From assembly GCA_013377075.1 (NCBI GenBank), contig JACABD010000002.1:1-64000 (forward strand): 64,000 bases of DNA, in the 5' to 3' direction. Numbering within the stretch: the stretch's first letter is position 1; each line of letters opens with the position of its first letter. The notes below the pieces were generated by a model. That model searched no databases, was not told the origin of the DNA, and worked only from the letters and a program-made list of their open reading frames with translations. The DNA comes from Geobacteraceae bacterium (GTDB lineage: Bacteria > Desulfobacterota > Desulfuromonadia > Geobacterales > DSM-12255). The position numbers were made by a program, and so were the translations under genes. Of the stretch, positions 26,856 through 40,168 are shown in pieces.

Positions 26856-27536
26856 ATGCTCAAAGCGGTTATCTTCGATTTTGACGGCATCATTGTTGAT
26901 AGCGAACCGTTGCACTACAAGGCTTTTCAACGGGTTCTTGAACCCCTCGGCGCCAGTTTTTCATGGGATGATTATATCGAGACCTACATGGGGTTCGATG
27001 ATCGCGACGCCTTTCGGGAAGCTTTTGCTCGGGCCGGTAAGACGCTGGATGATGCAAGGCTCCATGAACTGATTGCTCAAAAGGCTGAGCTCTTTCAGCA
27101 TGTCGCTGCTGATGGTGTCACTGCATACCCTGGTGTCTGCGAGCTCATCCGTGCCATTTCCGGCAATCTGCCACTTGCCATCTGTAGCGGCGCACTGCGC
27201 TCCGACATTGTACCGATACTTGCAACCCTTGGCCTGACAGGCTGTTTTGACTGTATGGTAACTGCCGATGATGTGCCACAGAGCAAACCCGACCCTGCAA
27301 GTTACCTGGAGGCTGTAAAGCGCCTTCAGTTCTGCTTTCCTGAAAAGATGATCCTGGCAGAAAACGCAGTTGCCATTGAGGACACACCGGCCGGTATCTC
27401 ATCGGCAAAAGGGGCGGGCCTGAAAGTTGTGGCGGTAACCAACAGCTATGCCGCCACTGAACTCACCACTGCTGATGCAGTTGTTATAACCCTTGCGGAG
27501 CTGGGAATCGAGGGTCTCTGTAGCCTGATTCAATGA
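26856..27536 (+). CDS. HAD-superfamily hydrolase, beta-phosphoglucomutase/phosphatase-like
   Basis: A 226-residue HAD hydrolase with an alpha-helical cap. Motif I is FDFDGIIVDSEPLHY (nucleophile Asp near residue 9), motif II is the CSGA segment near 112, the motif III Lys is in QSKPDPASYL, and motif IV is IEDTPAGISSAKGAG. The pattern fits the subfamily of beta-phosphoglucomutases and small-sugar or 2-deoxyglucose-6-phosphate phosphatases; the substrate cannot be told. The stop overlaps the hrpB start (ATGA). Confidence 0.9.
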   Translation: MLKAVIFDFDGIIVDSEPLHYKAFQRVLEPLGASFSWDDYIETYMGFDDRDAFREAFARAGKTLDDARLHELIAQKAELFQHVAADGVTAYPGVCELIRAISGNLPLAICSGALRSDIVPILATLGLTGCFDCMVTADDVPQSKPDPASYLEAVKRLQFCFPEKMILAENAVAIEDTPAGISSAKGAGLKVVAVTNSYAATELTTADAVVITLAELGIEGLCSLIQ

Positions 27537-30034
27537 ACCGGCTCCCGGTAGATGACGTAATGCCTGAGCTTCTGCTGGCGCTTGAAAAAAACGCTGTTGT
27601 CACACTGCAAGCCCCCCCCGGTTCTGGCAAGAGTACCCGTGTTCCCCCCTGTCTGCTCAATTCTCCTCTTTTTGCAGCTAAACGTCTTGTCATGCTGGAG
27701 CCGAGACGTCTTGCCGCTATCAACGTTGCTCACCGTATTGCCAGTGAAGAGGGTGAAGCGGTCGGCGGACGCATCGGCTACTCGATCCGCTTTCAAAAAA
27801 AGGTCTCAAGCCGCACCAGACTTGAGATTGTCACTGAAGGCCTCCTCCTTGCCCGTATGCAAGGTAACCCTTTTCTTGAAGATATATCACTTGTAATTTT
27901 CGATGAATTCCACGAACGCTCTTTGCATAGTGATACCCTGCTTGCCCTCTCTCTTTACATCCAGCGAAACTTCCGCTCTGATCTGAAAATTCTTATCATG
28001 TCAGCTACCCTTGATCTTGCTCCGATCCTGAAGCTTGCCCCGGATGCAGTCTGTATCTCCTGTGAAGGGAGGCTGCACCCGGTCTCACAGAGGTATCTTC
28101 CAGCAACTGACCGTGATCTGGCAATAGCAACAGCAAAGGCGGTGCAAAGCGCATACGGGCAGGAGGAGGGGGATATTCTCGCCTTTCTCCCGGGCTCTGC
28201 CGAAATCCGCCGTTGCCAGCGTTATCTTGCCGGTGTAATGAAACCTGAAGAAGCCCTGTTGCTGCCGCTCTATGGTGATCTATCCTTCAAGGAGCAGGAG
28301 GCAGCGCTTGCTCCTGCCATGAAGCGGAAGATCGTTCTGGCGACAAATATCGCCGAGACGAGTCTGACCATTGACGGAGTACGGGTCGTCATCGACTCCG
28401 GTGTTGTCAGACGTCTCAGGTTCGACCAGTCAACCGGGCTTGACCGGCTGGTTACTGAGAAAATATCAAAGGCATCTTCGATCCAGAGGGCCGGTCGCGC
28501 CGGTCGGACAGCGCCGGGAGTGGTCTACAGGCTCTGGAGCGAATTTGAACAGACGACACTTCTTGATAGTGATCCGCCTGAGATAATGATTGCCGATCTT
28601 GCGCCGCTCTCCCTTCTCATCGCCAGTTACGGCATCAATGACATGGCTGATCTGCCATTTCCGCAAGCCCCCCCTGAAGCCGCTATTGCAGAGGCGTCAC
28701 GGCTGTTAACGCTGCTCGGAGCTTTTGACGGTGAAGGGCGGATTACCGCCGTTGGTAAAAAGATTGCCAGCTTCCCCCTTCATCCCCGACTTGGCGCTCT
28801 CCTTGTCAAGGGTGAAGAGCTGGGAGCGCTTCATCTTGCTATTGATATGGCGGCGCTGCTCTCTGCCAGGGATATTATGCCAAGGCGGGGAGGTGGAGGT
28901 GATCTGTTCGATCAGCTTCGGATGCTCCATGAAGTCAGGCAGCACGGGGGGAGAGCTAATGCCGCCATTGACGGGGCCGCAGTGGCGGAGGTTGAAAAGA
29001 TTGTCCTTGGCATAAGGCGAAGCATTAATGCCCATGAAAGCTCTGCTCCTCTGAATCTTGAAGTCGTGGCAAAACTGCTTGCCACCTCATACCCGGACAG
29101 AATCGCCATGAAGCGGGAAGGAACCGGCGGCAGGTATCTGCTGGCAAATGGCAAGGGTGGAGAGCTTGCCGCCGATGCGGCTGTTCATGCCGGTCAGTTC
29201 ATAATCGCCCTCAGGGTCGATGCCGGGCAGGTTGGTGATGCGCGGATTTATGCCGCAGTGCCTTTGACCGAGGAGATAATCAGGGAACTGTTTGCAGAAA
29301 GGCTCGAGAAGCGGCGCAAGGTCAGCTGGGATGGGGTTTTAAGGCGTGTGACTGTGCGGGAGGAGCTCTCTTTTGCCAGGCTGACCCTTGAATCAAAGGT
29401 TGCGTCGCCCACAAGGGCTGATCTGAAAAACGGACTTATTGAGGCAATTTCTGCTGGTCGTGATGGCCTGATTTTCGCCGATGACGATGCTGCTGCCCAG
29501 CTTCGGGGCAGGGTAGGGCTGCTGCGGCGGATATTTCCCGATGATGGCTGGCCCGATCTCTCTACTGCCGACTTGACTTTGGCTGTAGCGGATTGGCTTC
29601 CCGAGCTGGTAGATTCCCTCGATTCTGTTCAGGCGATTTCAGCGGTGAATCTGGATAAGGTTTACAAGATCGTTCTTGGTAGAAAACGGCTCAGCCAGCT
29701 TCAGGAATTCTTGCCGGAGAGTTACACTCTGCCGTGCGGAAGAAAGGCGAAGATCAGCTATGCGGAAGAGGGAGAACCATTTCTCTCCGCACGTCTCCAG
29801 GATCTCTTCGGAGTTGCTAAAACCCCGTCAATAGCCGGAGGACGGGTACAGCTCCTTGTTCATCTGCTCTCCCCGGCGGGCAGACCGCTTCAGGTGACAA
29901 AGGATCTTGCCGGTTTCTGGAGCGGCAGTTACCAGAGTGTGAAGAAGGAGATGAAAGGGCGTTATCCAAAGCATAACTGGCCAGAAGATCCGTTGAGCGC
30001 TCCGCCGGTGAGGTTCAGCGGGAAGAAGAGTTAG
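27533..30034 (+). CDS. hrpB: ATP-dependent RNA helicase HrpB
   Basis: A DExH helicase of 833 residues, the usual HrpB length. Walker A is APPGSGKST near residue 30, motif II is the HrpB-specific DEFH (IFDEFHERS), SAT is in MSATLD, and ATNIAETSLTIDGV and QRAGRAGR give motifs V and VI. The HA2 region and the HrpB C-terminal domain (PVRFSGKKS end) follow. The cellular role of HrpB is poorly known in bacteria. It is coupled by a 4-base overlap to the HAD gene. Confidence 0.95.
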   Translation: MNRLPVDDVMPELLLALEKNAVVTLQAPPGSGKSTRVPPCLLNSPLFAAKRLVMLEPRRLAAINVAHRIASEEGEAVGGRIGYSIRFQKKVSSRTRLEIVTEGLLLARMQGNPFLEDISLVIFDEFHERSLHSDTLLALSLYIQRNFRSDLKILIMSATLDLAPILKLAPDAVCISCEGRLHPVSQRYLPATDRDLAIATAKAVQSAYGQEEGDILAFLPGSAEIRRCQRYLAGVMKPEEALLLPLYGDLSFKEQEAALAPAMKRKIVLATNIAETSLTIDGVRVVIDSGVVRRLRFDQSTGLDRLVTEKISKASSIQRAGRAGRTAPGVVYRLWSEFEQTTLLDSDPPEIMIADLAPLSLLIASYGINDMADLPFPQAPPEAAIAEASRLLTLLGAFDGEGRITAVGKKIASFPLHPRLGALLVKGEELGALHLAIDMAALLSARDIMPRRGGGGDLFDQLRMLHEVRQHGGRANAAIDGAAVAEVEKIVLGIRRSINAHESSAPLNLEVVAKLLATSYPDRIAMKREGTGGRYLLANGKGGELAADAAVHAGQFIIALRVDAGQVGDARIYAAVPLTEEIIRELFAERLEKRRKVSWDGVLRRVTVREELSFARLTLESKVASPTRADLKNGLIEAISAGRDGLIFADDDAAAQLRGRVGLLRRIFPDDGWPDLSTADLTLAVADWLPELVDSLDSVQAISAVNLDKVYKIVLGRKRLSQLQEFLPESYTLPCGRKAKISYAEEGEPFLSARLQDLFGVAKTPSIAGGRVQLLVHLLSPAGRPLQVTKDLAGFWSGSYQSVKKEMKGRYPKHNWPEDPLSAPPVRFSGKKS

Positions 30035-30136: not shown

Positions 30137-30153
30137 ATGCAATGAATTATCAT

Positions 30154-30183
30154 TTGACGTATCCGCCGTTATAGTTGTATCCT
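30154..30183 (+). promoter_or_regulatory. Candidate promoter of the riboswitch-adhesin transcript
   Basis: TTGACG (30154-30159), an 18-base spacer and TATCCT (30178-30183). Transcription would begin near 30190, about 30 bases before the riboswitch aptamer. Confidence 0.5.
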
Positions 30184-30220
30184 TCCTTCTAATTAAAAAG
30201 TCGACAATCAGTATAACTAC

Positions 30221-30308
30221 ACATTTTCCGATAATAGCAACTCCGGAGCAATCCGGGGACGCAGAGCCAGGGGTCCCAAGTGGACAGCCCAGCCGCCGAA
30301 GAAAATCG
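30221..30308 (+). ncRNA. GEMM-I riboswitch (cyclic dinucleotide; probably 3',3'-cGAMP type)
   Basis: The GEMM-I aptamer is visible base by base. A P1 stem pairs ATTTTC(C)G with CG(AA)GAAAAT. A P2 stem CTCCGG/CCGGGG is capped by a GCAA (GNRA) tetraloop, followed by the core GGACGCAGAGCC (consensus GGACGCAAAGCC). P3 is GGGGTCC...GGAC..CCC, followed by AGCCGCCG. The base aligned by eye with G20 of the V. cholerae Vc2 c-di-GMP aptamer is A (AATAGCAAC). A20 is the feature of the GEMM-Ib group found in Geobacter that prefers cGAMP. The class call is firm; the ligand call is inference from one aligned base. Confidence 0.85.
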
Positions 30309-30358
30309 TTATTTCAATTCGTTGTTTCAAGGCCACTTCTGCCAGCGAAATGATAAAC

Positions 30359-30396
30359 GCCCGCCTTCGGTCTGACCGGAAGCGGGCTTTTTTTTT
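30359..30396 (+). terminator. Riboswitch expression platform: intrinsic terminator
   Basis: GCCCGC pairs with GCGGGC, with an inner TTC.GG/CC.GAA extension, followed by nine T residues, 46 bases before the start codon of the surface protein. CTTCGG (30365-30370) in its 5' arm is complementary to CCGAAG (30296-30301) in the 3' part of the aptamer, which would allow an alternative antiterminator pairing. Confidence 0.88.
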
Positions 30397-30441
30397 ATCT
30401 CATCAAATTGATCCTTAAATTCAGATAGCGGAGGCTCTACT

Positions 30442-33400
30442 ATGACTAGTTTCCAATCAACAAAATTCCTGTCATTTTATCGATCTGTAAACTTTTCCCG
30501 TATAGCCGCATTACTCCTGTTTGGCACTCTTTTCTTCTTGCAGGAGTGGTCATGGCCGGGAAAAGCAGAAGCTGCCGACTGCACGTCTGCAACTTCCTGG
30601 CATACAACAGGCAATGGAGGTAACTGGTCAAGCAATGCGATATGGCAATGTAATACTGGTTCATGGGTTGCTCCAAATGCCGGTCAATATCCGGGCTTTG
30701 GCGGCAGGACTACAGATAATGTGCAGATCCTGGAAGGGACTGCTACCACTACAGTAACTCTGGATACCAGTGTAACCATTGCCAGTCTGGCATTCCCTAC
30801 TTCGGGAGTCGGAATGGCCACCAACCTTAACCATAGTGGAACAAATACCTTGAATGTTACCGGTACTGTTGCCATGAATCAGCCATCTCTAACTGCTTTT
30901 CTTTATACCTGGAACATTGGCGGTGGCAGTGCAACCGTCGACGGTTTGATCAGCTTCAACGGTACTTTAGCTGGTGCCAACAAGCGGATCACGGTAGGTG
31001 CGGGAACCCTGAATGCCAATGCAGGCATCAGTTTCCCGACAGGCGGCGCAGCAGCTGCCAATGTACTTTACATGACCGGCGCTGCCGGAAGGATAAATCT
31101 GAAAGGTGTGGTGACCAACCCGACACTCGGCACCCTTACCGGTGGCACTACTGGCAGCATTTTTAACTTTGCTGACACGACAAATGCGCAAACTATTCCC
31201 ATGACCTCTACCTGGACATACAACAATCTTTACATCAACAACACCAGTGCAAATGGAGCGTCTTTGAATGCAGTCGTATCGGCAGCCAGGGTTACCGGTG
31301 ACCTGCGGGTGCAAAGCGGCACCCTGAACAACGGCGGTTTTGCCATAGTTGGAGCTGCTACCAAGGCCTTTGAGGTGGTAAATGGCTCTACTTTTCTCCT
31401 TAGCGGCACCACAAGTGCCATGCCAACTGGCTTTTTATCAACATCTCTTGGCACAACCAGTACAGTGAATTTTGGCGGAACCGGTATCCAAACCATTAAT
31501 GCTGTTAGCTACGGAAATCTTATCAGCAGCAGTACCGGCGCACGTACTCTTGCAAGCAGCGGCACCATTGGTGTCGCCGGTTCATTTACACCGGGCACGA
31601 ATACATACACAGTGACCGGCAGCACAGTCAATTTTAACGGCGCTGCCCAGAACGTGCCGGCCTTAACCTATAACAACCTGACATTCAGTGGAAGCGGCAC
31701 CAAGTCAACTGTAAGCGGCACAACTGTCAACGGCACTCTGAATATCCCCGCAGGAGGTGCCACAGCCAGCCTTGCAGCTCCAATAACAGCAAACATTCTG
31801 ACATTGGGCAGTATGGGCACTGCAAATACAACCTGGGGCGGCACTGGTTCGGGTGCTACCTATATTAATTCAACATTCTTTAATCCGGCAACAAGCGGAA
31901 ACTATGTAACTGTCTCAACCAATACCCGGGCTGCGCAGGCAGCATTGACAGTGACAGCTCCAACCGGTATCACCTATGGCTCAACCGGTCAGATAGTCAC
32001 GTCAGGCGGCTCAGGTACAGGAGCAATGTCATACAGTCATGGTGCATCCAGCGGCTGTACGGTTAACCCAACGACCGGTGTTATAGCCGTAACCAATGCC
32101 ACTGGCAGCTGTTCAGTAACCGCCACGAAAGCTGCTGACGGCAATTACTCAGTTGCGACTTCAGCCGTTTATCCGGTCACGCTCACAAAGGCAACCCCCA
32201 GCGTAACAACCTGGCCGACCGCAAGCGCCATTAACCTCGGCGATGCGCTTTCAGCTTCAACCCTTACCGGTGGCAGTGCCTCTGTTGGTGGCGTTTTTGC
32301 TTTCACCAACCCTTTGACGGTTCCGTCATCGTCAGGAACCTACAACGCTTCGGTAACCTTTACCCCGGCAGATACTACTGACTACAACACCGCTACCGGT
32401 TCAGTGAATGTTACAGTTAACGTGGGCAAAACCGACCAAACCATCACCTTCGGTGCCTTGTCTCCTGTGACCTACGGCGCAGCTAATTTCGGTTCCGGCG
32501 CCACCGCCTCTTCCAGCCTGACCGTGACCTATAGCAGCTCTGACACCAATGTCGCCACCATAGTTGGGGGATTGATTCATGTTGTTGGAGCAGGTACAAC
32601 AACCATCTATGCCGATCAGCCAGGAGATGCCAGTTATAATCCGGCTCCGCAGGCCTCCCAGACCCTTACGGTCAACAAGGCTACTCTGACTGTTGCCGCA
32701 CAGAATGAAAGCCGTTCCTATGGTTCGGCGAATCCGATCTTTACCCCGACCTACAGCGGCTTTGTCTATGGAGAGAGTGCAGCAGTGCTGACCGGTGTTC
32801 CCAGTCTTATCACCACCGCTGACAGTAACAGCCCGGTGGGGAGTTACGACATAACTGCCAGCGTCGGCACTCTGGTAGCAGCTAACTATGATTTCTCTTT
32901 CGGTACAGGCACTCTGGCCGTCAGCCTGGCCAGCCAGACCATCACCTTCAATCCGCTGGCTGCCAGGACCTATGGCGATGCTGTCTTTGATCTGACTGCC
33001 ACTGGCGGGGCTTCCGGAAACCAGGTCACCTATGCTAGCTCCGACCTGACAGTAGCTACTGTGAGCGGCGCCACTGTCACCATAGTCGGCCAGGGAATTA
33101 CCACCATCACTGCTAATCAGGCTGGCAACAGCAACTATGCCTCCGCAACAGCCCAACAGAATCTGGTTATCAACAAGAAGACCCTCAACGTAGCCGCACA
33201 GAATGAGAGTCGGCCCTATAATACCGACAACCCGACCTTGACGCCGAGTTACACTGGTTTTGCATATGGAGATACCACAGCAGTGCTGACCGGAACTCCG
33301 GTCATAACTACTGCGGCAACCAAAACCAGCCCGGTGGGGAGCTATGACATTGACGTTGCCGTTGGCAGTCTGACCGCGGCCAATTACTCATTTAGCTTTA

Positions 33401-34926
33401 CCAAAGGCATACTTGCAGTCGGCCTCGCCAGCCAAACCATTGCATTCACAGCTCTGCCAGCCAAGACGTACGGCGAATCCACTTTCGAACTCTTAGCCAC
33501 TGGCGGCGATTCCGGAAATTCGATTACCTTCGCCAGTTCCAATACTGCCGTCGCCGCTGTAAGCGGAACAACCGTCACTATTGTCGGGGCAGGGACCACC
33601 ACCATTACCGCCAGCCAGGCTGGCAACAGCAATTATGCCTCAGCAACAGCGACACAGGACCAGCTGATCAACAAGGCAGCGCTGACAGTAACGGCTCTTG
33701 TTTCCAGCCGCGATTATGGTACGAGCAACCCGACCTTCGCTCCTGACTACAGCGGCTTTGCATATTCTGACACTGCCGCAGTTCTGCAAGGGGCACCCAG
33801 CCTTACTACTGATGCAGTTATCGGCAGTCCGGTCGGGGCTTACCAGATCAATGCGGCTCAAGGCAATCTGTTCTCAAATAATTATTCATTCAGCTTTGTT
33901 GCCGGGACCTTGACCATCAACAAGGCATCTTCAAACATAACCACCTGGCCGACAGCCAGTGCCATCACCTACGGCCAGACACTGGCCTCCTCGATCCTTG
34001 GCGGCGGCGCAGCCACACCTGCTGGCAGCTTTGCCTTCACCACCCCGTCCACATCCCCTGCTGTTGGCACAGCCACCCAGAGTGTCACCTACACACCGGC
34101 CGATTCCGCCAACTACACTGTTGCTGTAAGTACGGTGAGTGTAATAGTCAACATGGCCAGCCAGACCATCGGCACCATCAGCTTCAGCCCTCCGACCCTT
34201 ACCACCGGCGGCACCACAGCGGCCAGCGCCATTGCCAGCTCCGGACTTCCGGTCAGCTTCAGCAGCAACACGCCGACCGTCTGCACAGTAAGCGGCAGCA
34301 CGGTATCTGCAGTAACCGCCGGAACCTGCACCATCAAGGCAAGCCAGGGTGGCAACGGCAACTACACTGCTGCCATTGATGTCACCCAGGATCTTACGGT
34401 TACATCAGCCAGCGCCACACTGACCGTAACAGTTCTCGGCACAGGCGGCGGTTCAGTCCACAGCTCTCCACAGGCAATTGCCTGCGCAAGCGGCTCTGCA
34501 ACCGACTGCAGTAAATCATTCTCAAACGGTACACCTGTAACACTAACTGCCACGCCTGATTGGAAGTCTGTCTTTAGCGGATGGGGAGTTCCATGTAGTG
34601 GCACAGGCAGCTGCATGATCACTCTTGATGGTGATGCCGGTGTTTCAGCCAGCTTTAATGTTAATGGTCAGGCAACTATCATAGGGCACACACTAACCGA
34701 ATACGGCAGTTTGCAGGATGTATACAATGCCGCCAGTAACGGCAGCATAGTTGCCGCCCATGTCTACACCTTTGCGGAAAACCTAATCCTGAACAGGCCG
34801 ATCTCAGTTACCCTTGATCTTGGCAAAGGGAGTCTCTATCTTAGTCCGGCAGGTTACACAACCCTGCAGGGAACGCTGACTATTGAACAAGGGACAGCAA
34901 CTGTTAGCAACTTGATCATAGATTAG
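30442..34926 (+). CDS. Large secreted repeat protein with MBG/Ig-like domains (putative surface adhesin)
   Basis: 1494 residues, beginning with a signal peptide (hydrophobic RIAALLLFGTLFFLQ, likely cleavage after KAEA near residue 44). Residues 45-500 are Gly/Ser/Thr/Asn-rich with beta-helix-like repeats. Then comes an ordered array: module A (KATPSVTTWPTAS), three 166-residue units each made of an Ig-like part (QTITF...) and an MBG part (TVAAQNESRSYGSANP), and a second module A (KASSNITTWPTAS). Near the C-terminus is a divergent InlB-B/Flg_new-type repeat (GGGSVHSSPQ ... WKSVFSGWG). No sortase, PEP-CTERM or autotransporter end is visible. MBG-type proteins are extracellular and mostly uncharacterised. 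It follows a cyclic-dinucleotide riboswitch, which suggests biofilm or surface-contact control. SD AGCGGAGG precedes the ATG. Confidence 0.85.
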   Translation: MTSFQSTKFLSFYRSVNFSRIAALLLFGTLFFLQEWSWPGKAEAADCTSATSWHTTGNGGNWSSNAIWQCNTGSWVAPNAGQYPGFGGRTTDNVQILEGTATTTVTLDTSVTIASLAFPTSGVGMATNLNHSGTNTLNVTGTVAMNQPSLTAFLYTWNIGGGSATVDGLISFNGTLAGANKRITVGAGTLNANAGISFPTGGAAAANVLYMTGAAGRINLKGVVTNPTLGTLTGGTTGSIFNFADTTNAQTIPMTSTWTYNNLYINNTSANGASLNAVVSAARVTGDLRVQSGTLNNGGFAIVGAATKAFEVVNGSTFLLSGTTSAMPTGFLSTSLGTTSTVNFGGTGIQTINAVSYGNLISSSTGARTLASSGTIGVAGSFTPGTNTYTVTGSTVNFNGAAQNVPALTYNNLTFSGSGTKSTVSGTTVNGTLNIPAGGATASLAAPITANILTLGSMGTANTTWGGTGSGATYINSTFFNPATSGNYVTVSTNTRAAQAALTVTAPTGITYGSTGQIVTSGGSGTGAMSYSHGASSGCTVNPTTGVIAVTNATGSCSVTATKAADGNYSVATSAVYPVTLTKATPSVTTWPTASAINLGDALSASTLTGGSASVGGVFAFTNPLTVPSSSGTYNASVTFTPADTTDYNTATGSVNVTVNVGKTDQTITFGALSPVTYGAANFGSGATASSSLTVTYSSSDTNVATIVGGLIHVVGAGTTTIYADQPGDASYNPAPQASQTLTVNKATLTVAAQNESRSYGSANPIFTPTYSGFVYGESAAVLTGVPSLITTADSNSPVGSYDITASVGTLVAANYDFSFGTGTLAVSLASQTITFNPLAARTYGDAVFDLTATGGASGNQVTYASSDLTVATVSGATVTIVGQGITTITANQAGNSNYASATAQQNLVINKKTLNVAAQNESRPYNTDNPTLTPSYTGFAYGDTTAVLTGTPVITTAATKTSPVGSYDIDVAVGSLTAANYSFSFTKGILAVGLASQTIAFTALPAKTYGESTFELLATGGDSGNSITFASSNTAVAAVSGTTVTIVGAGTTTITASQAGNSNYASATATQDQLINKAALTVTALVSSRDYGTSNPTFAPDYSGFAYSDTAAVLQGAPSLTTDAVIGSPVGAYQINAAQGNLFSNNYSFSFVAGTLTINKASSNITTWPTASAITYGQTLASSILGGGAATPAGSFAFTTPSTSPAVGTATQSVTYTPADSANYTVAVSTVSVIVNMASQTIGTISFSPPTLTTGGTTAASAIASSGLPVSFSSNTPTVCTVSGSTVSAVTAGTCTIKASQGGNGNYTAAIDVTQDLTVTSASATLTVTVLGTGGGSVHSSPQAIACASGSATDCSKSFSNGTPVTLTATPDWKSVFSGWGVPCSGTGSCMITLDGDAGVSASFNVNGQATIIGHTLTEYGSLQDVYNAASNGSIVAAHVYTFAENLILNRPISVTLDLGKGSLYLSPAGYTTLQGTLTIEQGTATVSNLIID
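32191..34155. repeat. In-frame tandem array A-[B]x3-A within the surface-protein gene
   Basis: Three B units start at 32431, 32929 and 33427, exactly 498 bases (166 codons) apart. They are flanked by two copies of a different module beginning at 32191 and 33925 (both encode a TTWPTASAI segment). B units are diverged at DNA level but still share long blocks such as the run ending in GGCAACAGCAA. Recombination between units would change the protein length without shifting frame. Confidence 0.85.
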
Positions 34927-35292: not shown

Positions 35293-36087
35293 ATGCAGTT
35301 GCCAACCATTGATCCTGTGTTTCTCCGATTAGGTCCCCTTGAGTTCAGATGGTACGGGCTCATGTATATTCTCGGCTTTCTTGCTGCATATCTCATAATC
35401 AGGCAACAGGCAAAAAAACGAAATATTGATCTATCATCAGAAACAATTTCCGATATTGTTTTTTTCATAGCTATGGGAATTGTTCTGGGTGGCCGTAGCG
35501 GCTATATCCTTTTCTATAATTTTGCCTGGTATATTGCTCACCCACTGAAAGTATTTGCAGTCTGGGAGGGTGGGATGTCATTTCATGGCGGGATTATAGG
35601 TGGTGTGATTGCCGGTCTCTATATTGTCAGGAAACATTCTCTGGGGACATGGGAGATGGGAGATATCATTGCGCTTACCATCCCTGTAGGGCTTGGGCTT
35701 GGCAGGTTAGGTAACTTTATTAACGGGGAGCTTTTCGGTAGGGTTACAAATGTTTCCTGGGGCGTCATTTTCCCTTCAGGTGGCAACCTTCCCAGGCATC
35801 CATCACAACTGTATGAAGCTTTTCTGGAAGGGCTTCTTCTCTTTATAATTACCTATTCGGTTAGCAGGATGAATCCTCCCAAAAGTGTCGCTTTCTGGAC
35901 TGTTATCGGCGGTTATGGTCTTTTCAGGTTTATTGTGGAGTTTTTCAGGGAACCTGATCAGCAGCTCGGATTCCTATGTGGTGGTGCTACAATGGGGCAA
36001 ATCTTGAGTTTACCTATGTTCGCTCTTGGAATGGTTATGATAGTTGTTGCCTATTACAGGCGGAGAAAGGTCAATCAAGCTGTTTGA
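35293..36087 (+). CDS. lgt: Prolipoprotein diacylglyceryl transferase
   Basis: Transfers diacylglycerol from phosphatidylglycerol to the lipobox cysteine of prolipoproteins, the first step of lipoprotein maturation in the inner membrane. The start at 35293 follows CAGGAG and gives 264 residues; the track start at 35164 lies inside tRNA-Ala. Seven membrane helices are apparent. Signature motifs are the HGG segment in MSFHGGIIGGVIAG and RLGNFINGELFGR; the family's essential region near the C-terminus reads GYGLFRFIVEFFREPD. It converges with the RsbW-like gene, overlapping it by 17 bases. Confidence 0.96.
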   Translation: MQLPTIDPVFLRLGPLEFRWYGLMYILGFLAAYLIIRQQAKKRNIDLSSETISDIVFFIAMGIVLGGRSGYILFYNFAWYIAHPLKVFAVWEGGMSFHGGIIGGVIAGLYIVRKHSLGTWEMGDIIALTIPVGLGLGRLGNFINGELFGRVTNVSWGVIFPSGGNLPRHPSQLYEAFLEGLLLFIITYSVSRMNPPKSVAFWTVIGGYGLFRFIVEFFREPDQQLGFLCGGATMGQILSLPMFALGMVMIVVAYYRRRKVNQAV

Positions 36088-36499
36088 TCATTTCCAGCAC
36101 ATTGCCGTTATCGCCGTTTCTGATATATGTTACTGAGTCCATGATCTCCCGGATCAAAAAAATTCCTCTTCCCCTGTCTTCAAGTTGATTAAAGTCAGGT
36201 GACTGCACTTCGTTGATATCAAATCCCTGCCCAAAATCAAAAATCCGGATAAGAAGCTCATTTTCCGCAATGTTGATAAGGATATGTACGCAGTTGTCAC
36301 TACAGTCACTGTTGCCATATTTTATGGCATTTGTCATTGCCTCTGTGAGTACCAGGTTTATCTGATAGGCAAGTGTCTCCCTGTCGCCGGAGAAGCGGTC
36401 TATCTCTCTTGCAATATCTTCGCCAATCCTGCCGATAAGGCTTAAGTACCTTGTCTGGTTTGGTACCTTTATATCGAGTTCAATGTCACGGTTTCGCAT
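36071..36499 (-). CDS. RsbW-like anti-sigma factor / serine-protein kinase (HATPase_c)
   Basis: A 142-residue GHKL ATPase of the RsbW/SpoIIAB type, with the N box VLTEAMTNAIKYGN, G1 IFDFGQGFDI and G2 DRGRGIFLIREIM. Proteins of this type bind a sigma factor or other target and phosphorylate a STAS antagonist. It lies 8 bases downstream of the STAS gene in an operon headed by a transporter-phosphatase, forming a complete kinase/antagonist/phosphatase set. No sigma-factor gene is adjacent, so the final target is unknown. The 3' end overlaps lgt on the other strand by 17 bases. Confidence 0.9.
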   Translation of the reverse strand: MRNRDIELDIKVPNQTRYLSLIGRIGEDIAREIDRFSGDRETLAYQINLVLTEAMTNAIKYGNSDCSDNCVHILINIAENELLIRIFDFGQGFDINEVQSPDFNQLEDRGRGIFLIREIMDSVTYIRNGDNGNVLEMIKQLD

Positions 36500-36507
36500 A
36501 AAGCTAT

Positions 36508-36840
36508 CTAGCCTTCCAGGGCATCGGCTACAGTGGGGAAAATCTCAAAAACCCGATGGAGTCTTGTCAGCTCAAACATTGATTTTACCTGGGGTTGTAG
36601 AGAGGAGAGCTTCAACGTGCCATGATTTGTTGTTGCATTCTTGAAACCGGAAACGAGTGCACCGAGACCCGAACTGTCTATGAATCTGACGGTTTTCAAG
36701 TCAATAAGAAGACTTAGTTTGCCTTTCTCGAAAAGACTCTGAACCTCAGCTTTGAGCTCACCGGAGTTGTGAGCATCAAGGCGTTCCTCATTTATCTGGA
36801 TTACTATGGTGTTCTTAATTTCCTCAGTAGTTATATTCAT
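36508..36840 (-). CDS. STAS-domain anti-sigma factor antagonist
   Basis: A 110-residue SpoIIAA/RsbV-type protein. The phosphorylation site is in the typical loop VRFIDSSGLGALVSG (Ser56/Ser57). When dephosphorylated, such proteins bind the RsbW-like kinase and release its target. GGAAGG precedes the ATG. It is placed between the SpoIIE-type phosphatase and the kinase genes, which are its expected partners. Confidence 0.92.
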   Translation of the reverse strand: MNITTEEIKNTIVIQINEERLDAHNSGELKAEVQSLFEKGKLSLLIDLKTVRFIDSSGLGALVSGFKNATTNHGTLKLSSLQPQVKSMFELTRLHRVFEIFPTVADALEG

Positions 36841-36901
36841 AAATTTACCTTCCTTCCCAAAAAAAGAATTTCTTTAATTATAACATATAAAATCAGTTTT
36901 G

Positions 36902-39900
36902 CTAATCCTGTTGGTCATAGGGTGACTGCTCAATCCTGAATGCCACCATTGATACGTCGTCAGTCAGTGGATTACCTCCTGAAAAGCAGATAACCTCCCG
37001 GTATATGTGGTCAACTATCTGTTGAATAGGCTCATCATGGCATTTAATAAGAATATTCTCAAGCCGCTCAATACCGAACAATTCACCGTCATCGTCTGTT
37101 GCCTCTGTTACTCCGTCTGTGTAAAGTAACAGTAGATCGCCCGGGTTTAACATAATAGATCTGTCCTCAAAAACTATATCTCCCTTCACACCTATGATCA
37201 TCCCTTCCGCATCCAGCATCTGACATTCCTGTTCTGTTGCCTGGTATAGCAGGGGGGTGTTATGACCAGCATTAGAGTAAGTGAGCCACTGGGTTGCACA
37301 GTCATATTTTATATAAAACATCGAGATGAATAGTTCCGCCCTTGTCAAATCCGGCAATAGAAGGTTATTAAGAGATGCCAGTATTCCCGAAGGAGTAGTG
37401 TTGATATTTACCTGTGCTCTCAGGACTGATCGGGTTTCAACCATGATAAGTGCGGCTCCGACATTGTGTCCTGAGACATCCGCTATCACAGCATCAAAAA
37501 ATCTGTCATCGCTGACAAAGAAATCATAATAGTCTCCTCCGACATGGTCGGCGGAGACTGAGAGTGACGCAATCTGCAATCCTGAAATGTTCGGCGGAGC
37601 ATCTGGAAGCAGTGAGAGCTGTATCTGCTTGGCCATCTCCATTTCGTGCTGAACAGCGGCATTTTTAAGAAGTGCGGCATCTTTCTCGTTCTTTTCATGT
37701 TCACGGGCCTCTCGCTCATCTACTAGCTTTACGGCAAGAGCAAGCTGACCAGCCAGGCTTGATAGCAGGTTCAGCAGTTCTTCAGTAAAAAGGCCTACTA
37801 TTGATATTGAATATACCGAGAGTACCCCCAGAGGCTCTTCGTCCCCTACCAGTGGAATGTGGGCAAATGCGGCAAATGTGTCAACAGGCGTGACCGCCGA
37901 AGCTGTTCTTCTGGTAATGTTTCTGGTGTCGTTGGCAAATTGTGATTTTTTGGTTGTAAGAAGTTCTGAAATAAAGAAGTCCTCTGTCGGGCTGATTTTT
38001 GCAGATATGCGAAAGTCGCCATTAAGAATGCTTTTTTCAGACAGAAGCGGCATGTTTCTATCGTTGTCTATCAGTCGGACAGTTACCAGGTCAAAGTGGA
38101 ACTCCTTGACTAAAAGTTCAAGTAACTCTTTGGTGATTGATTGCAAGCTGCCAGACCTGTTCATTATTTCAGATGATTTAAGCCTGACATAAAGAGCTTC
38201 GCGGCTTTCTTCAAGTGATGATCGGACTGACCTGAAAGCGTCATAAAATGATTCCATGCCTGAACCGACATCAGAGAGGTAGTTTTCTATAATTGCGCTT
38301 GCCGCAGCAGAACCAACCGAACCTGCGATGGTTTTCTCGACAAATCTCTTCAGGCTGGGAAGCTCGAATTCAGATACCATCCCCTTTTCATCAATTTCAT
38401 GAAGGGATAGATATTCGCTAATAGCCTCATGAGCCTGTTTTTCGCCGATAAAGTTTTCCATTAGGCCGACAAATTCGATAATTGTGACAGGTTTTGAGAG
38501 CCTCTTTGTCTCCCAAAGATCAGTACGTGTTCCCTCTGAATAGGGTTCAGCAAATTTGATGCATTGCTCTTTCTCGGCTTCGCTCTGATTTAGAAGGATG
38601 GAGAAAAGAAGGTAGCCGCCAATGTTGAAGAGCATGCTCCAGAAAAGCGAGTTGCTCCACATATCCAGACCGGTCAGACCGAAAAGCTCTGTTGGTTTGA
38701 GTATTGAAAGGCCGAACAAACCATGTTCAAGGATGTCTGTATCTATCCATCCGGACTTGATGACAGAGGGGAGAAGAAGGGTGTAAAACCAGATAGAAAA
38801 CCCACCCATAATGCCAGCAATGGCGCCTGCGGCATTACCTCTGGGCCAGTATATTGCGCCTATTAGTGAAGGTGCTAGCTGAATTGCGGCTGAAAATGAA
38901 ATCAGGCCTATATTCACCAGCATGAAAGTGTCACCTATTATCTGGAAATAGGCATATCCAAGAAAAATGACAAGGAATATACTCATTCGCTTCAATGCCA
39001 GTATGAGTGTTGAAAAAGAGTCGGTAATTCTCAGCCTGAGCACTAAAGGCATCAGAAGATGGTTAAGTATCATTGTTGATGTTGCAACTGATTCAGCAAT
39101 GACCATCCCTGCTGCAGCTGAGAACCCTCCAAGAAATGCCAGTAGTGCAAGCCAGTGATGACCAGTGTTCATTGGTATTGTCAGTACAAAATAATCTGCT
39201 CCGCTGTTACTTCCGTTTAATAGAATCCCTCCGAAAGCGATAGGGATAACAAACAGGTTTATTGCAAACAGATAGGCAGGAAAACGCCACATTGCCTCCT
39301 TGATATGATTTTCATCAGAGTTTTCAATAACCATGATCTGGAATTGTCTCGGAAGTAGCATTACGCTTCCCATGGCAAGGAAGAGGTTGGTGGACCAGTT
39401 GGCATAACTTGTCTCGTTTAAATCGCCAAGAGTTGTCAAATGATCAAATAAATAGGGATATTTGGATGACATTTGCCCCATGATGTCAGTGAATCCATTG
39501 AAAAGGAAGTAAGTCACATATATGCCGACGCAGATGAAAGCCAGAAGCTTTACCACGGATTCAAAGGCTATTGCAGCTACAAGCCCTTCATGACGGCGCT
39601 GTGTGGCAAGGCTTCTTGCTCCGAACATGATTCCGAAGATACTGATGAAAATGGCGAAAAAAAGTCCAGAGTTATTAATTGCAAAAGAGTTTTTGAGGTG
39701 TTCCGGGAGCTGAAAGGAGGGGTGATTGCAGATAAGTATGAATGTTGATGAGACAGCCTTTAGTTGCAGGGCTATATACGGGATTATTCCCATGACCGCA
39801 ATGATGGTTATAGCTGCACCGAGAAACTGGGATTTGCCATATCTTGAACTGATAAAGTCTGATATGGATGTTATGTTGTTCTCCTTGGTAATTCTCACAA

Positions 39901-40168
39901 TTTTTCTTAGAATAAACCACCATGTAAATGCAGTGAGTGATGGGCCAAGGTATATGACTATGAAGTCTATGCCAGATGTGGCAGCCCGGCCTACACTTCC
40001 ATAGTATGTCCATGATGTGCAGTAGACGGTTATTGACAGGGAGTATACAAATGAGTTGGAAACAATGCTTCTCCCTTTCTGATAGCGTTTGTACGCATAA
40101 ATTGCCACCAGAAAGTGAAGGCATATGTATAAGGAGATGGCAATTAATAGAGACTGAAAACTTATCAT
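36902..40168 (-). CDS. Sodium:solute symporter fused to GAF and SpoIIE-type PP2C phosphatase
   Basis: 1088 residues. The first 540 or so form an SSS-family (SLC5-like) transporter with about 13 membrane helices (opening SLYICLHFLVAIYAYKRYQ). A cytosolic linker (about 545-690) follows, then a GAF-like domain (about 690-840) and a SpoIIE/RsbU PP2C phosphatase (about 860-1080) with metal-binding motifs DHVGGDYYDFF and IADVSGHNVGAALIM. SSS domains fused to histidine kinases (the CbrA type) are known; here the output is a protein phosphatase that should dephosphorylate the adjacent STAS protein. The transporter domain is therefore a likely nutrient or ion sensor. The substrate is unknown. No clear Shine-Dalgarno sequence is visible; the start is 6 bases after the small membrane gene. 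Confidence 0.88.
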   Translation of the reverse strand: MISFQSLLIAISLYICLHFLVAIYAYKRYQKGRSIVSNSFVYSLSITVYCTSWTYYGSVGRAATSGIDFIVIYLGPSLTAFTWWFILRKIVRITKENNITSISDFISSRYGKSQFLGAAITIIAVMGIIPYIALQLKAVSSTFILICNHPSFQLPEHLKNSFAINNSGLFFAIFISIFGIMFGARSLATQRRHEGLVAAIAFESVVKLLAFICVGIYVTYFLFNGFTDIMGQMSSKYPYLFDHLTTLGDLNETSYANWSTNLFLAMGSVMLLPRQFQIMVIENSDENHIKEAMWRFPAYLFAINLFVIPIAFGGILLNGSNSGADYFVLTIPMNTGHHWLALLAFLGGFSAAAGMVIAESVATSTMILNHLLMPLVLRLRITDSFSTLILALKRMSIFLVIFLGYAYFQIIGDTFMLVNIGLISFSAAIQLAPSLIGAIYWPRGNAAGAIAGIMGGFSIWFYTLLLPSVIKSGWIDTDILEHGLFGLSILKPTELFGLTGLDMWSNSLFWSMLFNIGGYLLFSILLNQSEAEKEQCIKFAEPYSEGTRTDLWETKRLSKPVTIIEFVGLMENFIGEKQAHEAISEYLSLHEIDEKGMVSEFELPSLKRFVEKTIAGSVGSAAASAIIENYLSDVGSGMESFYDAFRSVRSSLEESREALYVRLKSSEIMNRSGSLQSITKELLELLVKEFHFDLVTVRLIDNDRNMPLLSEKSILNGDFRISAKISPTEDFFISELLTTKKSQFANDTRNITRRTASAVTPVDTFAAFAHIPLVGDEEPLGVLSVYSISIVGLFTEELLNLLSSLAGQLALAVKLVDEREAREHEKNEKDAALLKNAAVQHEMEMAKQIQLSLLPDAPPNISGLQIASLSVSADHVGGDYYDFFVSDDRFFDAVIADVSGHNVGAALIMVETRSVLRAQVNINTTPSGILASLNNLLLPDLTRAELFISMFYIKYDCATQWLTYSNAGHNTPLLYQATEQECQMLDAEGMIIGVKGDIVFEDRSIMLNPGDLLLLYTDGVTEATDDDGELFGIERLENILIKCHDEPIQQIVDHIYREVICFSGGNPLTDDVSMVAFRIEQSPYDQQD

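Follow-up and report, generated by a model that had tools for sequence, protein, structure and literature searches.

Within the window, the 64,000-nucleotide stretch of Geobacteraceae DNA that was analysed, a GEMM-I RNA and a separate intrinsic terminator precede the gene for a large secreted protein. The features of the locus are given below.

30147 to 30175, +: alternative promoter-like sequence TTATCA-17-TATAGT (consensus scan, weak evidence)
30154 to 30183, +: promoter-like sequence TTGACG-18-TATCCT (consensus scan, weak evidence)
30223 to 30228, +: 5' strand of P1, AUUUUC, with its partner GAAAAU at 30301 to 30306 (folds; pairing in 24 related RNAs)
30226 to 30300, +: GEMM-I (c-di-GMP-I) aptamer (RF01051, 48.5 bits)
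30236, +: A at the position of Vc2 G20 (Infernal and MAFFT alignments)
30237 with 30262 and 30238 with 30261, +: lower P2 pairs G21-C46 and C22-G45 (Infernal and MAFFT alignments)
30248 to 30251, +: GCAA tetraloop capping P2 (sequence)
30296 to 30301, +: putative antiterminator strand CCGAAG, the 3' end of the aptamer on the ligand pocket side
30307 to 30358, +: intervening hairpin, which brings the aptamer end beside the 5' arm of the terminator (folds)
30359 to 30396, +: intrinsic terminator, wholly downstream of the aptamer (hairpin 30359 to 30387, U tract 30388 to 30396)
30365 to 30370, +: CUUCGG in the terminator 5' arm, partner of 30296 to 30301
30430 to 30434, +: Shine-Dalgarno sequence GGAGG (sequence)
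30442 to 34926, +: target gene, encoding a 1494-aa secreted MBG-repeat protein
34672 to 34923, +: C-terminal 84-aa module, common to other large proteins of the family

The promoter-like sites are weak evidence, as 3 were found compared with 1.2 in shuffles; one of them begins at 30154, where the earlier note on this DNA also began.

A scan of the window against Rfam returned a single c-di-GMP-I (GEMM-I) aptamer. The cmscan match to RF01051 (E=2e-6) lay above the gathering score of 35 bits and covered the model at full length, positions 1–87. With a model made from family aptamers the RNA scored 76.5 bits, the window sequence itself being among the members of that model. We found all of the GEMM-I hallmarks in this RNA: P1, P2 with its GNRA loop, the core GGGGACGCA, P3, A47 in J2/3 and the 3' CCGAA, together with covariation in P1. 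P1 cells were paired in 83% of cases across 24 related RNAs, compared with 47–65% when the strands were slid by 1–3 bases, and C-G to U-A exchanges were seen. The earlier note had proposed a GEMM-I aptamer with a GNRA-capped P2, a GGACGCA core, P3 and an A aligned with Vc2 G20, followed by a strong terminator and then the gene in a transcriptional layout, and had named an Infernal search as a check. Each of these elements was recovered.

The target gene was likewise as described there, a 1494-residue repeat protein with a signal peptide. We found three stretches of MBG_2 (PF18676, E=1.6e-43) and, read by eye, a hydrophobic signal peptide at the N-terminus, while the ORF contained no tandem DNA repeats at the TRF threshold. 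That the protein serves attachment is a guess. Its C-terminal 84-aa module has 43 matches, spread over 12 of the 13 family genomes; it closes many large secreted proteins and often terminates very large ORFs. By coordinates, five of these matches are in ORFs that immediately follow GEMM-I riboswitches. The module (window 34672–34923; L285–L293; L338 5589–5813) gave no Pfam or NCBIfam match and may be a signal for sorting or anchoring.

In both genomes of the same genus hrpB lies 5' of the riboswitch (window 27533–30034; L338 15873–18392), a linkage seen in the window and in G001 and not found at the other fetched loci. Apart from the C-terminal module, the genes regulated in these two genomes differ, as though the regulator were retained while the secreted protein is replaced. 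Beyond the target gene, window positions 36071–40168 (−) encode what by eye is a partner-switching cluster, with an anti-sigma-factor-like ATPase, a STAS-like protein and a 1088-aa sensor that has a SpoIIE-type phosphatase end.

We surveyed all 145 GEMM-I matches in 13 family genomes and read base 20, bases 21–22 and the terminator position for each. A20 with C21-U22, which pair with G45-G46, was present in 95 RNAs, and on these bases we assign them to the canonical Geobacter GEMM-Ib (cGAMP) subgroup. In 87 of the 95 the aptamer's 3' strand doubles as the 5' arm of the terminator, which makes aptamer and terminator mutually exclusive and the platform of the ON type. Counting the window RNA, there are eight GEMM-I aptamers in the source genome (3.7 Mb in 126 contigs), and the other seven all have the canonical core, six of them with an overlapping terminator. 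The window RNA has the A20 of GEMM-Ib; its lower P2 is of the c-di-GMP type, with G21-C46 and C22-G45 where the canonical RNAs have C21-G46 and U22-G45, and its 3' strand is not the terminator 5' arm. It is one of 9 family RNAs with A20 and G21-C22 (A20-GC), none of which takes a terminator from the aptamer strand (0/9 compared with 87/95; Fisher 9e-9, among relatives that are not independent). Common to all 9 is a separate hairpin 20–60 bases downstream, including one RNA scored as 'none' for its terminator, in which the U tract is interrupted and the hairpin is still visible. Among the genes that follow other A20-GC RNAs are those for large secreted proteins, for RCC1-like and kelch-like proteins, and for response regulators (names by eye).

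Two tandem pairs of canonical GEMM-Ib RNAs were present in the source genome (L149, G000:C1 62461 and 62669; L148, G000:C13 21515 and 21681), one of them upstream of a gene for an RCC1-repeat protein. In the C1 pair the second aptamer (L005) is without a terminator and may act otherwise. The G20 RNAs of the family had mixed terminator layouts. The G20-GU aptamers L105, L106, L091, L142, L143 and L046 end GGCGAGAAACAG with a terminator directly after, which starts AAACAG and ends CUGUUUCUUUUUUUUU, a further platform type.

In the window RNA the terminator hairpin (about −19 kcal/mol, followed by 9 T) starts 59 bases after the aptamer and has no strand in common with it. When folds were constrained at transcript ends 30372–30384, the antiterminator helix between CCGAAG and CUUCGG was favored over the P1 structure by about 6–9 kcal/mol. 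From 30388 onward, when the hairpin is complete, P1 together with the terminator becomes favored, and the two are able to coexist. In the full-length RNA the terminator state has the lowest energy, also in the ligand-free fold (−56.7 vs −53.8), so switching depends on kinetics. By folds and complementarity this is the arrangement of a Cd1-type platform, in which aptamer and terminator can coexist and the antiterminator takes a strand of the aptamer. The earlier note had missed this relation between terminator and aptamer, and also the predicted OFF layout. As read from its sequence, the window RNA is a real GEMM-I riboswitch with an A20 discriminator, a c-di-GMP-type lower P2 and a predicted OFF platform. 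The aptamer, P1, the terminator and the antiterminator complementarity, with its recurrence in related RNAs described below, were computed directly.

Our data suggest that this riboswitch is likely a transcriptional OFF switch. We consider c-di-GMP the most likely ligand, and given A20 some binding of cGAMP is probable. In the ligand-free RNA, CCGAAG would pair with CUUCGG once the 5' arm of the terminator has been transcribed, and this antiterminator would prevent the terminator so that the secreted protein is made. With a cyclic dinucleotide bound, P1 and the pocket would retain the CCGAAG strand, the terminator at 30359–30396 would form and transcription would end. Since P1 and the pocket use the same strand as the antiterminator, ligand binding should free the terminator and turn the gene OFF, probably opposite in sign to the usual Geobacter GEMM-Ib riboswitches. 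We infer this sign, and with it the ligand and the strength of the switch, from the features above.

Ligand preference is not readable from sequence alone. The earlier note had called the riboswitch probably cGAMP-type from its A20 and had assumed a Hypr-type GGDEF enzyme as the source of the messenger. We found one such enzyme in the genome, outside the window: a 363-aa GAF-GGDEF protein on contig C70 (L273 1456–2544, −), in which Ser replaces Asp (GHLTGS signature; signature residues from PMC6456294) and the GGDEF motif is kept. Its closest solved relative by sequence, the best PDB match, is the G. metallireducens Hypr domain 6d9m. The remaining readable GGDEF domains of the genome have Asp, and L275, L280 and L282 gave no readable motif. 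Thus, cGAMP could be made in the cell. This enzyme, the seven canonical GEMM-Ib RNAs beside it, the A20 of the window RNA and the binding of cGAMP by Vc2 G20A (PDB 4YB1; PMC6274999; PMC7288161) all speak for a cGAMP-selective GEMM-Ib riboswitch that acts as an OFF switch through its platform. However, the lower P2 pairs are c-di-GMP-type, and changes there alter selectivity (PMC9262584).

The distribution of A20-GC also stands against cGAMP selectivity. A pattern scan over 85,000 named genomes gave at least 116 A20-GC loci, and by the covariance model nearly all of those listed are GEMM-I aptamers. Among the matches listed, more than 100 A20-GC aptamers fall in about a dozen phyla, with hosts that include Bacilli, Clostridia, Chloroflexi, Gemmatimonadota, Omnitrophota, Acidobacteria, Actinomycetota and others. 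A Ser-type (Hypr) GGDEF was not seen in four Bacilli genomes with an A20-GC aptamer, where every readable domain had Asp or Asn and a few were unread. A20 alone is therefore no mark of cGAMP, and we rejected it as proof of this ligand. A natural A20 aptamer from Desulfobacca acetoxidans, in a c-di-GMP-like background, gained affinity for c-AMP-GMP and retained much of its c-di-GMP binding, which was perhaps slightly weaker, i.e. dual binding (PMC9481103). We consider selectivity for cGAMP rather unlikely in the window RNA; of the earlier proposal the A20 and the enzyme stand, and the step from A20 to the ligand is its weak part.

A constitutive terminator behind a real aptamer would also fit the layout, the CUUCGG match then being incidental. 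UUCG is common in terminators, and the full-length minimum holds the terminator with or without ligand. The UUCG of the window terminator, however, sits in a stem arm and not in the loop, and the complementarity recurs. Among 24 Desulfuromonadota A20-GC RNAs with a normal CCGAA end, which are relatives and not independent samples, 17 could form 5 bp or more between the end of the aptamer and the arm of the terminator and 7 had little complementarity, compared with 5 of 50 control terminators drawn from the same DNA at a distance from any riboswitch (p=2e-7). Shuffling each RNA gave a median p of 0.12 and a combined value of 5e-7; this test was weak for some members, so the control terminators were used as the comparison instead. 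The complement also tracks changes in the aptamer end, since the Desulfuromonas RNA L210 has CAUGGA in place of CCGAAG and an arm that reads UCCAUG. The corresponding pairings were CCGAAGA:UCUUUGG in L229 and GCCGAAGA:UUUUCGGU in G005. This suggests that constitutive attenuation is improbable. In G001 and G005:C171 a long hairpin that reaches from the 3' end of the aptamer to the U tract resembled an overlapping terminator and was set aside, as it is mostly antiterminator helix with large internal loops.

We give equally little credence to a canonical ON switch, in which ligand would block termination and raise the secreted protein. In its favor, the characterised Geobacter GEMM-Ib RNAs are ON (every downstream gene fell in a gacA deletion; PMC6456294) and the seven other GEMM-I RNAs of the genome have the canonical GEMM-Ib core. 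The position of the terminator disfavors it: terminator and aptamer fold together in the minimum-energy structure, and an overlapping terminator was scored in no A20-GC RNA of the family.

Since the layout predicts an OFF switch, the sign would be wrong in a reading that has cGAMP turn attachment on. Descriptions of the Geobacter cGAMP riboswitches present them as ON switches in contact-dependent metal respiration. Through an A20 subgroup with the opposite platform, surface proteins would be open to repression by these same messengers. It is possible, and we put this forward tentatively, that a second A20 subgroup of Geobacter-type bacteria (A20 with G21-C46) responds to cGAMP, or to both dinucleotides, and turns large secreted surface proteins OFF, alongside canonical GEMM-Ib RNAs that turn cytochromes and pili ON in the same cell. 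If so, two related RNA subgroups would convert one signal into opposite outputs. Annotation of ligand specificity should not rely on base 20 alone and has to take in the platform and the lower P2 pairs as well.

Like the Cd1 c-di-GMP-I riboswitch of Clostridioides difficile, a proven OFF switch, the window RNA combines a GEMM-I aptamer with a separate terminator able to coexist with it and an antiterminator from the aptamer-stabilising strand (PMC9262584). Unlike Cd1, which controls a flagellar operon, it belongs to another phylum and its OFF action is predicted. The pilM riboswitch, an ON switch, has the opposite topology (PMC9262584). With the Geobacter GEMM-Ib RNAs (pilM, pgcA and Gs1761; PMC8835794, PMC6456294, PMC9262584), a type with seven members in the same genome, the window RNA has in common its fold and A20. 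These ON switches have C21-U22 paired to G45-G46 (from our reading of the 95 family RNAs) and use the aptamer 3' strand as terminator 5' arm, whereas the window RNA differs in its lower P2, G21-C22/G45-C46, and in keeping the terminator separate. The Desulfobacca acetoxidans A20 variant is similar in having A at the discriminating base of an otherwise c-di-GMP-I-like aptamer, with better c-AMP-GMP binding and c-di-GMP binding largely kept; unlike the window RNA it stands in tandem with a cobalamin riboswitch and is predicted by its authors to be ON (PMC9481103). In Geobacter sp. Bin_37_8 the syntenic RNA (G001:C92:23707–23781) also follows hrpB and has an A20-GC aptamer that is 84% identical, with a CCGAAGA:UCUUCGG antiterminator. 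It controls a 3016-aa propeller/Ig-like protein that has only the C-terminal module in common with the window protein.
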